This document shows, one piece after another, positions 24,238-63,282 of a DNA stretch of 64,000 nt (positions are counted from its first letter, which is position 1; every line of letters starts with the position of its first letter). The notes beneath the pieces were generated by a model, which saw only the letters and a list, made by a program, of their open reading frames with translations, was not told where the DNA came from and did not search any database. Position numbers and translations under genes: made by a program. This DNA is from Phototrophicus methaneseepsis (GTDB lineage: Bacteria; Chloroflexota; Anaerolineae; Aggregatilineales; Phototrophicaceae), in the NCBI RefSeq assembly GCF_015500095.1, contig NZ_CP062983.1, positions 2,480,001-2,544,000 of the forward strand. The letters run 5' to 3'.

Positions 24238-24308
24238 AGGCGACGACCGGATTCGAACCGGTGTAAACGGTTTTGCAGACCGTTGCCTAGCCACTCGGCC
24301 ACATCGCC
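24238..24308 (-). tRNA. tRNA-Cys (anticodon GCA)
   Basis: A full cloverleaf can be drawn on the minus strand: acceptor GGCGATG/CGTCGCC (one G-U), D-arm with GAGTGGCTAGGC, anticodon stem ACGGT/ACCGT around CTGCAAA (GCA read), and T-arm CCGGTTCGAATCCGG. The discriminator is U, the cysteine identity base. CCA is not encoded. The loop sequence TTCGAAT is canonical. Confidence 0.97.
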
Positions 24309-59055: not shown

Positions 59056-60933
59056 TCAGGCGTAGATGAGGTGCGTCAGTAAGAAACGTTCGATGGTTTC
59101 GTAGTAGTCGATGATATTTTCCGGCTTGCGGAAGCCATGCCCCTCGCCTTCATAGACGTGGTATTCGTGCGGGATACCGTTGCGCTCCAATACGGCAACG
59201 ATGCTGTCAGATTGATTCTTAGGTACGACAGGGTCCTCTACCCCCTGGAAGACGAGCATCGTATCCTGGATTTTATCCGCATGATAGATCGGCGAGCGAT
59301 CCCGGTAGAGCTGGGAGGCTTCTGGTAAGGGGCCAAGAAGCCAATCGTTATAGCTGGCTTCGAACTTGTGCGTTTCCATAGCGAGGCTGAATTGATTGGC
59401 GACACCGTAGGAGCAAATCCCCACTTTGTAAAAGCCAGGGGCGTCTACGAGAGATTGTAGGACGGTGAAGCCACCTGCGCTGCCGCCCATGATAGCGACG
59501 CGCTCTTTATCAATGAGGCCTTCTTCAGCCAGGTAATTTACAGCGTCGATGCTGTCCTGCACATCATAAACACCCCAATTGGTTTTGTGCATATCCATAT
59601 AGGCTTTGCCAAAGCCAGTGCTGCCGCGGTGATTGACCTGCAGCACGGCATAGCCGCGTGTGGCGAAGAACTGCACATCGGCGTCGTAGTTAGCATAGCG
59701 CTGGGAAGTAGGGCCACCGTGTACCAGCACAATCAGCGGTGGCTTGCCCTCAGAGCTATATTTTGAGCTGGTGGGCATGGCATACATGCCATAAGCAATC
59801 TGACCATCACGCGTAGGCCACTCCAACAACTGCGTCTCTGCGAGGTCCTTTTTAGGCAGGCGCTCCGGCATTGAAAAGTGAACGGTCTTTGTGCCACCCT
59901 GTGCATCGTATGTGGCGATCCGCGGCGGGATTTGCGACGATGATGCAATGAAGGCTAACTTGCCATTAGCGGCGACATCAATTTGCTGCTGGTAGGTGTA
60001 AGCACCCAGATCGCTGATGTGCTGATTCGATTTCTGAGAGATGCTGACCTGCCACAGCGTGCAAAAACCTTTGTCATTGCGGATGTAGTAAATAGCGCTA
60101 CCATCTGCCGACCAGGCATAGGTACGCAAGCCCTGCGTCCAGGCGGGTGTACCGTATTCATAATCGCCATCGGTCAGTTGAGTATGCGTACCTTCGACGG
60201 GGTCGTAGAGGTAAAGCTGACTGTAACCGGTCTCGTCGCTGATATAGGCCATGAAACGCCCAGCAGGGGAGAAGGTGGGCTGGAAGATCGCCGTATTCTC
60301 ATCGCCTGCAATGGTCTTCTGGCTGGTGACGTAAGGGATGCTTTGTTCATCATCACGCAATGTAAGCAGGCGCAGCTCTGTGCCGTTCCAGGGCATGTTG
60401 GGCGCGTTCCAGGCGATATAAGCGACGTATTTGCCGTGTGGGTGCCATACGGGCTGCATGACGAAATCATCGCCCTGAGCTAGCTTTTGGGGCCACTGCT
60501 TGCCTTCTGAGTCGACAATCGCCAGTACGTCGTCATTCTGATAGGTGTGGACGTATAGCACCCATCGGCCATCTGCTGAGACGGCTGGCGATGCGACGCT
60601 GCCAAATTGTGGCGTAAGCACTTTCGCAGGACCCGCGCCGAGCGGCATCGCATAGAGTTGGTTGTTTGCGCAGAAGTACACTTTGTCACCATGTAAGGTG
60701 AAGTCGCCGCCACCATAGCCAACACCACCACCTATTTTCAGGCTGGTATCGGTGAGGTCGCGGGTGGGTTCGCCTTCTGTACGGGCGACGAGGCGGGTTT
60801 TGCCGTCCCGGCGCTCCGACCAGACCAGCGTCTTACCATCGCTGCTCCACTGCACATCATTAAGTCGGTTGTTGCCAGCCATCATGCGGGGGGTAATGGC
60901 GCTCTTCCAGGTACCGTATGGGCGCTGAACCAT
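59056..60933 (-). CDS. S9-family prolyl oligopeptidase / acylaminoacyl-peptidase-like
   Basis: 625 residues from ATG 60933; the frame is open 40 codons further but that part overlaps the terminator hairpin and lacks a ribosome-binding site. The N-terminal beta-propeller (about 20-330, with WSSDGKTLVWSE, SADGRWVLYVH and SPAGRFMAYIS repeats) caps an alpha/beta-hydrolase domain with catalytic Ser in GGSAGGF, Asp in GVEDPVVP and His in GEGHGFRKPEN. No signal peptide, so cytoplasmic peptide degradation is likely. A short terminated RNA lies just upstream. Confidence 0.92.
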   Translation of the reverse strand: MVQRPYGTWKSAITPRMMAGNNRLNDVQWSSDGKTLVWSERRDGKTRLVARTEGEPTRDLTDTSLKIGGGVGYGGGDFTLHGDKVYFCANNQLYAMPLGAGPAKVLTPQFGSVASPAVSADGRWVLYVHTYQNDDVLAIVDSEGKQWPQKLAQGDDFVMQPVWHPHGKYVAYIAWNAPNMPWNGTELRLLTLRDDEQSIPYVTSQKTIAGDENTAIFQPTFSPAGRFMAYISDETGYSQLYLYDPVEGTHTQLTDGDYEYGTPAWTQGLRTYAWSADGSAIYYIRNDKGFCTLWQVSISQKSNQHISDLGAYTYQQQIDVAANGKLAFIASSSQIPPRIATYDAQGGTKTVHFSMPERLPKKDLAETQLLEWPTRDGQIAYGMYAMPTSSKYSSEGKPPLIVLVHGGPTSQRYANYDADVQFFATRGYAVLQVNHRGSTGFGKAYMDMHKTNWGVYDVQDSIDAVNYLAEEGLIDKERVAIMGGSAGGFTVLQSLVDAPGFYKVGICSYGVANQFSLAMETHKFEASYNDWLLGPLPEASQLYRDRSPIYHADKIQDTMLVFQGVEDPVVPKNQSDSIVAVLERNGIPHEYHVYEGEGHGFRKPENIIDYYETIERFLLTHLIYA

Positions 60934-61013
60934 GCTTATCACTGCCTTTTCTTTGCGTAAATATGACGATAAAAATGTCGTGAATGATTGTATTGTAGCG
61001 CATGGCAGGGGAA

Positions 61014-61045
61014 GCAAAAAAGCCCCATCAAATGATGAGGCTTTT
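61014..61045 (-). terminator. Terminator in the S9 leader
   Basis: On the minus strand AAAAGCC-T-CATC pairs with GATG-G-GGCTTTT (about 61045-61018), followed by TTTTTTGC. It lies 81 bases before the S9 start and about 65 bases after a consensus promoter. Confidence 0.85.
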
Positions 61046-61109
61046 GAAATCATGTGAAGCGGAAAAAAGTTTATTTATTAAGTTTATTTTGTGCTTCACA
61101 TCTCTATTT
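61016..61109 (-). ncRNA. Candidate small RNA or attenuated leader
   Basis: A transcript of about 94 bases is predicted between the promoter at 61144-61116 and the terminator ending near 61014. It contains a perfect 9-bp stem, ATGTGAAGC (61101-61093) with GCTTCACAT (61060-61052), around an AT-rich 32-base loop that is nearly free of G, then the terminator stem. No start codon with a ribosome-binding site is seen. It is either an independent sRNA or a switchable leader of the S9 peptidase gene. Confidence 0.6.
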
Positions 61110-61115
61110 GACATG

Positions 61116-61144
61116 AGTATATGCTGAAAGAGGGCGTGTGTCAA
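61116..61144 (-). promoter_or_regulatory. Near-perfect sigma-70 promoter
   Basis: On the minus strand TTGACA (61144-61139), exactly 17 bases, TATACT (61121-61116). It is the best promoter match in the window apart from that of tRNA-Cys, implying strong transcription of the short RNA downstream. Confidence 0.88.
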
Positions 61145-61312
61145 ACATCAATTTTGGCGTTTTATGAGAAGGATAAACGTTATAAAGGCCCTCTTTTTTG
61201 AGAGCGCGACCAATGGTCATTGAGATCGCTCTCATTGGATAAATAGTTAATATAAAATTGTTTTTGATATATTGTGAAAAAATTCATAAATTGATTAATG
61301 GGCTTGCAGGTT
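61145..61312. other. Spacer with a large inverted repeat
   Basis: Between the promoter and the L,D-transpeptidase terminator lies GAGAGCG (61200-61206) paired with CGCTCTC (61227-61233), with an inner GACC/GGTC stem (61208-61218). The rest is very AT-rich. It could be an operator or upstream activating element; no gene is seen. Confidence 0.4.
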
Positions 61313-61350
61313 CAAAAAGAGAGACATGTATATGAACATGTCTCTCTTTT
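61313..61350. terminator. Bidirectional terminator after L,D-transpeptidase
   Basis: A 15-bp perfect stem, AAAAGAGAGACATGT (61315-61329) with ACATGTCTCTCTTTT (61336-61350), 6-base loop, A/T-flanked on both sides. Confidence 0.93.
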
Positions 61351-61378: not shown

Positions 61379-63145
61379 TTATGTAGATTGGAAAAGCGTA
61401 TCCATATACGACATGGCTTGGCGTCCCAGATCACTCTGAGGGGCGAATTCGCTGGAGATAATTTCAACGACGGTGCCTTCATTAGCCCATTGATACAGGA
61501 ATTCGGAATTCGCCTGGGTCGACATCACACAGCCATACGTATTCTGTGCGCCAACAGCCCCATCACCCAACAGGCCCCCATTCGCCAGATGGACGATGCC
61601 ATGGAAGCCATTGGTGAGATTTTCTGCGACGTCGTAAATACCCATGAAGTATTCCATACGCCACTGACCGCAGACCCCATTGCTGTTACATAAATCGCTG
61701 CTGGACCCAACAGCTTCTTCTGTCTTGCTGAGGATCTGGAAGATGCCAGGGGATGTGGGCGCTTGTGGCATACCTGTCGAGATTTGCCAGTCAAAGGCGA
61801 TTTCACCATTTTCGAAGCCGACAAGCCACTTACGGTCCAGGTCCACCACGATTCGTTTGCCAAGTATGGGCTCAAAGGGCACCACCGCATCGCGCGAGGG
61901 GATGGTAATAACATCGCCCACGCTCAGCACGTCGAGATCAATGTCCGTGTTGGCTTGTTCAATGAGGGTGAAGGGCATGCCATTTTTACGGGCAATGCTG
62001 TAACCGCGGTCGCCGGATTCCACAACATATTCATGGGGCAGATAGCGAATGCGTACATTGGCTTCTGATTCGCCGCTGGTGATGGCTTCTTCTACGGCTA
62101 GCTGGGCTTCATCAAACTCCAGGTAGCGAGGTTGTTCACTCTGGGCGAGTTCGCCATTGACCACGTTAATCAGATCCTGGAAGCGGTCTTCGCGCAGGGC
62201 AAGGCCTGCTGGCCCAACGGCGAGCATCTGCGTCAGGTAATTTTTGTTGGTGCCCCACTGTTTGTATTCATCAATGAATGGATCATAGCCGGTGAGGATC
62301 AAGCCATTGTTGATGAGGCGATAAGCGGCGTCAACGTAAGGGGTTGCGTCGAAGGAGGACGGCGCTGTCTGGTTAGTTTGCAGGTCAAGCTGGCCCTTCT
62401 CGTAAATGGCGAGAGGGTCAAACTGGATCAAGTCCAGTGTAGCGCTGACGTCCAGTTCACGACTGGGCGTCCCACTCATGCTAATAAGGCGGTCATTTTC
62501 CCAGGCAAAGCCTGCATCGTAAGGCGGAATGTAGACAGCATCAATCTGATTGAGCAGGTAGGCTTGTGTTGTGCCGGCATTGATTGATACGACAGGCTCT
62601 ATGGAGACGCCAAAGGGGATGCCAGCGATGCCCTGTTCCTGCGCTTCTGCGACGATAGCTTCTGCATCGAGCTGTAAGCCGAGCTCGCTGGGGGCAACGC
62701 GCGCAAAAGTTTCGCCATCGAGCCGGATGTTAATTTCTTCATTGGCCCATTTTTCTAGCAGGGCAGCCTGTGCTTCCTCAAGGCTGCGCCCGCCAAGCGG
62801 CACTCCCATTGCCCAGACGTTGGGTGGAATCTGCCCACTGAATTGGGAGACCAGCCAGACAATCCCTAAAATGGCGATAATTACCAAAGGGATGAGCTTC
62901 AATAGCGGGCTGCGATTAATGAGATGCCAGACGGTATCGCGAGCATAGGTGACTGCCTGCCCCAGATTACGACTCACGGGCTGCAAATTCAGGTCGTTTA
63001 AGGGTGTTTGCCGTATGCGCGATACGGATTCTTCTTGTAGTGTTGCCATAGCGTCATGGCGTGCTTCGCGCCGGGTGCGGCGTTTTTCTTGCCGCTGACG
63101 GGCCCGGCTGACACGCTTGCGCTGAGATGAAGAGTAGTTATCCAT
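61379..63145 (-). CDS. LysM / L,D-transpeptidase (YkuD) peptidoglycan enzyme
   Basis: 588 residues from ATG 63145; a longer frame would start inside the promoter. A basic cytoplasmic N-terminus (about 1-75), one membrane helix (LLKLIPLVIIAILGIVWLV), peptidoglycan-binding-type regions with GVPLGGRSLEEAQAAL, a LysM domain (YVVESGDRGYSIARKNGMPF...GDVITIPS) and a YkuD domain. His515 in FHGIVH and catalytic Cys539 in TYGCVM are present, but the Arg normally after the Cys (GC-I/V-R) is Met. It should cross-link or modify peptidoglycan outside the membrane. Confidence 0.9.
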   Translation of the reverse strand: MDNYSSSQRKRVSRARQRQEKRRTRREARHDAMATLQEESVSRIRQTPLNDLNLQPVSRNLGQAVTYARDTVWHLINRSPLLKLIPLVIIAILGIVWLVSQFSGQIPPNVWAMGVPLGGRSLEEAQAALLEKWANEEINIRLDGETFARVAPSELGLQLDAEAIVAEAQEQGIAGIPFGVSIEPVVSINAGTTQAYLLNQIDAVYIPPYDAGFAWENDRLISMSGTPSRELDVSATLDLIQFDPLAIYEKGQLDLQTNQTAPSSFDATPYVDAAYRLINNGLILTGYDPFIDEYKQWGTNKNYLTQMLAVGPAGLALREDRFQDLINVVNGELAQSEQPRYLEFDEAQLAVEEAITSGESEANVRIRYLPHEYVVESGDRGYSIARKNGMPFTLIEQANTDIDLDVLSVGDVITIPSRDAVVPFEPILGKRIVVDLDRKWLVGFENGEIAFDWQISTGMPQAPTSPGIFQILSKTEEAVGSSSDLCNSNGVCGQWRMEYFMGIYDVAENLTNGFHGIVHLANGGLLGDGAVGAQNTYGCVMSTQANSEFLYQWANEGTVVEIISSEFAPQSDLGRQAMSYMDTLFQST

Positions 63146-63254
63146 GTTTAAACCCGTTAATATTACACGCTTCCAACAGGTGAATGAGGTTATGTGACCG
63201 CTATTTGCATGACTTGTCGCCAGCAGCGCGGTTAGAATGTTTAGGGATAGTTCC

Positions 63255-63282
63255 ATTATACACGGGTCAGGGAGTCATCCAA
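63255..63282 (-). promoter_or_regulatory. Promoter for L,D-transpeptidase
   Basis: On the minus strand TTGGAT (63282-63277), 16 bases, a perfect TATAAT (63260-63255). Predicted leader of about 100 bases to the ATG at 63145. Confidence 0.62.

Follow-up and report, generated by a model that had tools for sequence, protein, structure and literature searches.

A candidate small RNA gene with a conserved structure and its own promoter in the Phototrophicaceae (Chloroflexota)

Introduction

RsaE/RoxS and RyhB are intergenic, intrinsically terminated small RNAs (sRNAs) that act in trans. In class-I activation, CRP reaches RNA polymerase along the same side of the helix, at distances that keep the helical phase. 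The locus that we describe here, predicted from the genome of the deep-sea bacterium Phototrophicus methaneseepsis, resembles the RsaE/RoxS and RyhB kind in its apparently regulated sigma-70 promoter, a length of about 100 nt, a stem-loop with a U-tailed terminator and a putative single-stranded binding region. It differs from them in having no Rfam match at cut-off and in belonging to a family in which Hfq (PF17209) was found in none of 98 genomes, a control search having detected it in 5 of 14 named genomes; to the extent that Hfq is defined by PF17209, the RNA therefore cannot be an Hfq client.

Other described RNAs are more distant. Against Rfam 15, no family reached its gathering cut-off at this locus (the single match in the window was a tRNA at 24238-24308), and 20 member loci, searched out of a set of 25 from the family, likewise gave no match at cut-off. 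The best sub-threshold match was BTnc231 (RF04180; E 0.0014 for 451 bases searched), an sRNA whose general layout of hairpins and terminator is alike, although it was described from Bacteroides and its score lies far under gathering (27.0 against 80.4 bits). 6S RNA (RF00013) is likewise small and has an opened region rich in A and U, but the Phototrophicaceae RNA is about half as long and terminates at a hairpin of its own. We rejected this identity, as the window held no 6S match at cut-off and a 6S gene lies elsewhere in the genome (3174065-3174240); a separate 6S gene was found in 90 of the 98 family genomes, over cut-off in 85. Chloroflexi-1 (RF01698), also a candidate structured RNA of the Chloroflexota, is listed for Chloroflexus aggregans in Weinberg et al. 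2010 (PMC2864571); the present RNA has no Rfam match at cut-off to set beside it.

Among the matches listed for small RNAs in Chloroflexota, Anaerolineae or Phototrophicus in the open literature, titles and abstracts named no sRNA of this lineage, and passages of PMC2864571, PMC11005417 and PMC8941918 contain no description of the present RNA. For P. methaneseepsis ZRK33, PMC8941918 gives an annotation with three 'other ncRNAs', which the passage leaves unnamed, and raw RNA-seq data under PRJNA685946 and PRJNA758590.

Results

The analysed window is a 64-kb stretch of DNA (G000:C1:2480001-2544000) lying inside a single contig of 5,631,885 bp, and positions below are those of the window unless a genome is named. 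NCBI taxonomy assigns P. methaneseepsis ZRK33 to the Phototrophicaceae, and we took genome family f1 of our comparisons to be this family. On the minus strand, the first-pass annotation had read a TTGACA-N17-TATACT promoter, a 9-bp stem closing a 32-base loop, a terminator with six T and, 81 bases on, the ATG of an S9 peptidase gene; all of these coordinates proved exact to the base. The features are as follows.

61139-61144 (read 61144-61139), minus strand: -35 hexamer TTGACA, read from the sequence, with a 17-nt spacer to the -10
61116-61121 (read 61121-61116), minus strand: -10 hexamer TATACT, with transcription predicted to start near 61109
61013-61109, minus strand: predicted sRNA of about 95 nt, with a fold z-score of -5.4 and a covariance-model match
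61093-61101, minus strand: 5' arm of stem 1, ATGTGAAGC, with both-side changes in 9 of 9 pairs among 51 sequences
61052-61060, minus strand: 3' arm of stem 1, GCTTCACAT, pairing with ATGTGAAGC over 9 bp, with covariation
61061-61092, minus strand: 32-nt A/U-rich loop with zero G, containing two near-identical blocks, AAATAAACTTAAT and AAATAAACTTTTT
61016-61042, minus strand: intrinsic terminator and U tract, from sequence and fold, with both-side changes in 6 of 7 lower pairs
59056-60933, minus strand: S9 prolyl-oligopeptidase-family peptidase gene, downstream, related by synteny only (Pfam PF00326, E 3.6e-50)
61379-63256, minus strand: YkuD L,D-transpeptidase gene, upstream, related by synteny only (Pfam PF03734, E 1.4e-10)
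60992-60997, minus strand: TACAAT, a -10-like hexamer read from the sequence, candidate own promoter of the S9 gene
61200-61233, minus strand: 34-bp nested dyad GAGAGCG..CAATG..CATTG..CGCTCTC, a possible operator whose role is conjectural

The terminator hairpin, AGCCTCATC-ATTT-GATGGGGCT, occupies 61042-61021, with six T at 61021-61016; the S9 ATG stands at 60933, 81 nt past it. This terminator was missing from the list produced by an automated terminator scan, in our own reading because, when stems are sought, some of the T residues are paired with the AAAA in front of them. The predicted RNA (61109-61013) folded at -28.0 kcal/mol, compared with -13.4 +/- 2.7 for shuffled sequences (z -5.4), and none of 200 shuffles equalled it. 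No conserved reading frame was found inside the RNA, with an ORF of at least 12 aa in just 10 of 51 copies from the family; a leader peptide was rejected on this ground, and the window stem reads ATG TGA. Further upstream, the L,D-transpeptidase gene is followed by a near-perfect palindromic bidirectional terminator (61316-61350).

A direct nucleotide search of relatives returned mostly noise, apart from matches in the S9-upstream region of two genomes (G024, E 1.9e-4; G022, E 0.115), which led us to compare the loci of S9 orthologues, present in many genera of the family. Of 29 S9 loci compared, among them that of the window, 18 showed the same S9-upstream layout, and these 18 copies were used to build a covariance model, R1, which matched the window copy at 61014-61110 (E 1.6e-11, the window copy being among the model's 18 sequences). 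A search of 98 genomes of the family with R1 recovered the RNA from 51, in 18 of 24 genera, and 33 of the 51 copies lay outside the set used for the model. Each genome carried a single copy, except for G064, with an equal-scoring match at a contig edge (start of C368, excluded from the locus count), and G006, with an opposite-strand match. In the window's own genome, a DNA search detected no second copy, its other match being the upstream terminator palindrome read on the opposite strand; the model gave one weak further match (G000:C1:4651770-4651873, E 0.005).

The distribution is patchy at the genus level. Model R1 found the RNA in none of the 34 genomes of genus g17, despite S9 orthologues in at least two of them (G017 and G033), which probably reflects clade-wide loss or absence, and in G001, the only congener of the window's species that was examined, the model gave no match either. 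No convincing match came from outside the family: the first search of relatives reached at best E 0.055 in 24 genomes of other families, and a search of 396 genomes of the class yielded 11 with a match, ten within the family and one weak match elsewhere (G409, E 6.9e-4, a single-genome E); ten candidates were scored per genome in that search, a setting of lower sensitivity that weak relatives may escape.

The RNA usually sits between the YkuD L,D-transpeptidase and S9 genes, and it is retained when either of them is not its neighbour. A same-strand S9 gene comes next downstream in 38 of 51 loci, a different gene in 12 and a contig end in one, and in 31 the three closest upstream genes include a YkuD gene. 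At five loci (L129, L134, L135, L137 and L141) the L,D-transpeptidase gene adjoins the RNA upstream, and S9 is not the next gene downstream. Of the 12 non-S9 genes that come next, nine share the strand of the RNA and three are convergent. These neighbours are mechanical ORF calls, with a Pfam check for L129, L137, L145, L146 and L147 only: the convergent genes at L137 (Iso_dh) and L145 (nitroreductase) have Pfam support and that at L146 has no Pfam match, while L129 and L147 have same-strand genes downstream (FHA/response regulator and SSB, respectively), the minus-strand ORFs there being shadows.

The first-pass annotation had offered two roles, a stand-alone sRNA or a leader of the S9 gene. 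A cis-acting leader, whose terminator would be conditionally bypassed to set S9 expression, accords with the 38 loci in which S9 follows on the same strand, and in 11 of these the gap between the end of the model match and the S9 start is just 17-34 nt, leaving little space for a separate S9 promoter; read-through of the terminator into S9 may occur there, and is also possible into the nine same-strand non-S9 genes. Nevertheless, S9 is not the constant downstream gene that a leader, attenuator or riboswitch would call for. S9 orthologues also occur where the model detects no RNA (G001, G017 and G033) or where the RNA sits elsewhere (G006 and G015), a -10-like site with at least 5 of 6 matches is present in 23 of the 38 gaps, compared with 23% of shuffled gaps, and the single predicted fold of the window RNA contains no antiterminator. 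We therefore regard the leader as unlikely in general, though it may hold at the 11 loci with a short gap. As the RNA is kept at 12 of 51 loci next to a non-S9 gene, convergent in three, we favour a stand-alone sRNA gene, which covariation and conservation across the family also support; by these comparisons, the putative RNA gene stands on its own, and the intergenic region that holds it is old.

Covariation was assessed in an alignment of all 51 sequences, which was fitted to the covariance model. Changes on both sides were found in 17 of 18 base pairs, including all nine of stem 1, which none of 500 shuffles equalled. Both partners of a pair had changed in 163 cells, as against 39 +/- 6 in shuffled alignments and at most 37 once partners were slid by 1-3 columns; 96.8% of cells were paired, compared with 80.9% after shuffling. 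A MAFFT alignment of the first 18 copies agreed, with both-side changes in 13 of 18 pairs. The compensatory changes that the first-pass annotation had proposed to look for in the 61052-61060/61093-61101 stem were thus present in 9 of 9 pairs, and the conservation on which it had staked the unit of promoter, stem and terminator extends to the 51 family genomes. On the strength of this covariation, the predicted RNA structure is conserved. Some alignment details should be noted: in the MAFFT alignment (A1) the 3' arm of rows L037 and L047 was out of register, both being retained in the first model, and that of the L037 copy (L127 in A4) still appears so; three opposite-strand matches to already counted copies, which we attribute to the roughly symmetric loop and stem, entered alignment A3 and were excluded from A4 by a tighter cut-off.

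The zero G of the window loop reflects a G-poor composition that the 51 loops (29-47 nt) share, with 6.3% G, 18% C, 36% U and 40% A. They showed no excess of internal structure over shuffles (mean fold z -0.13). The exact loop sequence drifts, and its conservation is looser than one would usually see in a fixed antisense seed; the composition and a two-block period of about 14 nt are retained. A role of the G-poor, apparently unstructured loop as a binding region is plausible. This pattern of a persisting composition and period could also be expected of a decoy or scaffold, in which the two A-rich/U-rich loop blocks would bind an RNA-binding protein other than Hfq (not found, as above, in the 98 genomes) and pairing with mRNA would not be the main function. 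Runs alone, however, can yield such a period, for which the control was a mononucleotide shuffle, and the protein partner is hypothetical, so that we give this reading little credence.

Upstream of the RNA, the window promoter was the best (11 of 12 matches) in a 6-kb scan, which yielded 13 sites where 6.4 were expected; with promoter-like sites twice as frequent as expected, a promoter match alone means little. Across the family, 46 of 51 loci have a TTGAC core followed after 16-18 nt by a -10-like hexamer, and on this evidence the predicted RNA has its own conserved promoter of the sigma-70 type. In the window, a 9-bp inverted repeat, AAAGAGGGC / GCCCTCTTT, brackets the -35 (61126-61195, minus strand), possibly by chance.

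Farther upstream, 33 of 51 loci carry a 40-bp dyad, TTGTG-N9-AYTADCGNTART-N9-CACAA, at 17 or more of 21 matches; the best score among 51 shuffled upstream regions, one shuffle per locus, was 15. The centre of the dyad lies 41-43 bp from the -35 in 14 loci, 51-55 bp in 18 and 47 bp in one, L126, whose promoter is not called with certainty. Genera g12 and g16 each contain loci of both kinds, so genus alone does not explain which distance is found. At two or fewer mismatches, the dyad was matched in 22 of 98 genomes, solely beside the RNA and never twice, and a reversed control pattern gave one match; since the pattern was derived from the same loci, the informative part of this result is its absence elsewhere. 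By analogy with CRP, a dyad placed at either of two distances that differ by one turn of the helix suggests that a dedicated activator works here in a class-I-like way. The half-sites TTGTG and CACAA resemble those of Rex or CRP sites, and we claim neither, as they stand 30 bp apart around another palindrome.

The dyad goes together with a weaker -35. TTGACA was present in 4 of 33 promoters with the dyad, which mostly have TTGACT or TTGACG, and in 11 of 18 without it (Fisher p = 8e-4 at a dyad cut of 17, 9e-4 at 16 and 1.6e-3 at 18, ignoring relatedness throughout); at least four loci scored as dyad-less (L115, L138, L139 and L146) retain the inner palindrome. The helix-phased arrangement seen in the dyad-bearing loci does not extend to the window copy, whose -35 matches the consensus and in which the family dyad cannot be recognised (13 of 21, the noise level). 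It has instead the 34-bp nested inverted repeat GAGAGCGATCTCAATGACCATTGGTCGCGCTCTC (61200-61233), centred 72 bp before the -35 and matched once in the genome at three or fewer mismatches, which might replace the family operator in this species.

Many loci (L098, L103, L122, L125 and L130 among them) have a second element, TTGTGCA-N3-TRYAYGAAYTT, in most cases 240-286 nt ahead of the RNA; the window copy lacks it. In the 98 genomes, 15 of its 16 perfect matches fell at the RNA locus, but 11 of 32 matches with one mismatch. At L129 (G083) and L147 (G088), a sequence like this element occupies the proximal position instead. From -260 to -100, between the dyad and this second element, the sense strand holds more TTAAC than shuffled sequence does (35 occurrences in 51 loci against 11.7). 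A few 10-11-bp spacings of TT[AC]AC occur upstream and a response-regulator site is possible; PhoB-type direct repeats were considered and rejected, the spacing being unconvincing.

A DNA-level feature, in which no functional RNA is made and the stem arms and dyads serve as operators or as sites of recombination, could draw on the single-copy dyad nearby and on the stem arms being DNA inverted repeats. Yet the stem lies in register between a conserved promoter and a conserved terminator, and the separate terminator stem also covaries. G-U pairs exceed A-C pairs in stem 1 (13 against 5) and in the terminator (24 against 3), which favours an RNA over a DNA dyad, the stem contrast being weak. We consider the DNA-level reading very improbable. 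The reading that a promoter-like site and a stem came to lie beside the upstream gene's terminator by chance, for which the excess of promoter-like sites in the scanned 6 kb might speak, can be dismissed, given conservation over 18 genera and in 51 of 98 genomes, the covariation, which refutes it, and the separate hairpin terminator of the L,D-transpeptidase gene (61350-61316).

Discussion

We think it probable that the locus encodes a stand-alone sRNA of about 95 nt, belonging to a new RNA family within one family of Chloroflexota, activated through the dyad in most members and perhaps acting in trans through its loop without Hfq. According to this proposal, which draws on genome comparison, a discrete RNA would run from its own promoter to its own terminator. 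In most relatives, a dedicated activator would bind the dyad at one of two helix-phased distances and act in class-I fashion on a weakened -35, while the window's species, whose -35 is consensus, would have lost that operator or exchanged it for another. Less certain are the steps that follow transcription: the RNA may act in trans without Hfq, and the stem may serve to keep the loop open so that its A-rich and U-rich blocks can base-pair with mRNA targets or be bound by a protein.

More tentatively, and as a possibility that we would not yet call likely, a regulator with its sole clear genomic site at this locus may drive one sRNA as its output, in an Hfq-free system with the two-block loop as platform. 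If this is true, the loop would be a platform for mRNA pairing or for another RNA-binding protein. The helix-phased operator makes the identity of the regulator testable, and a covarying sRNA family, together with a single-site operator and a cultured species with public RNA-seq data, would offer an entry to Hfq-free RNA regulation.
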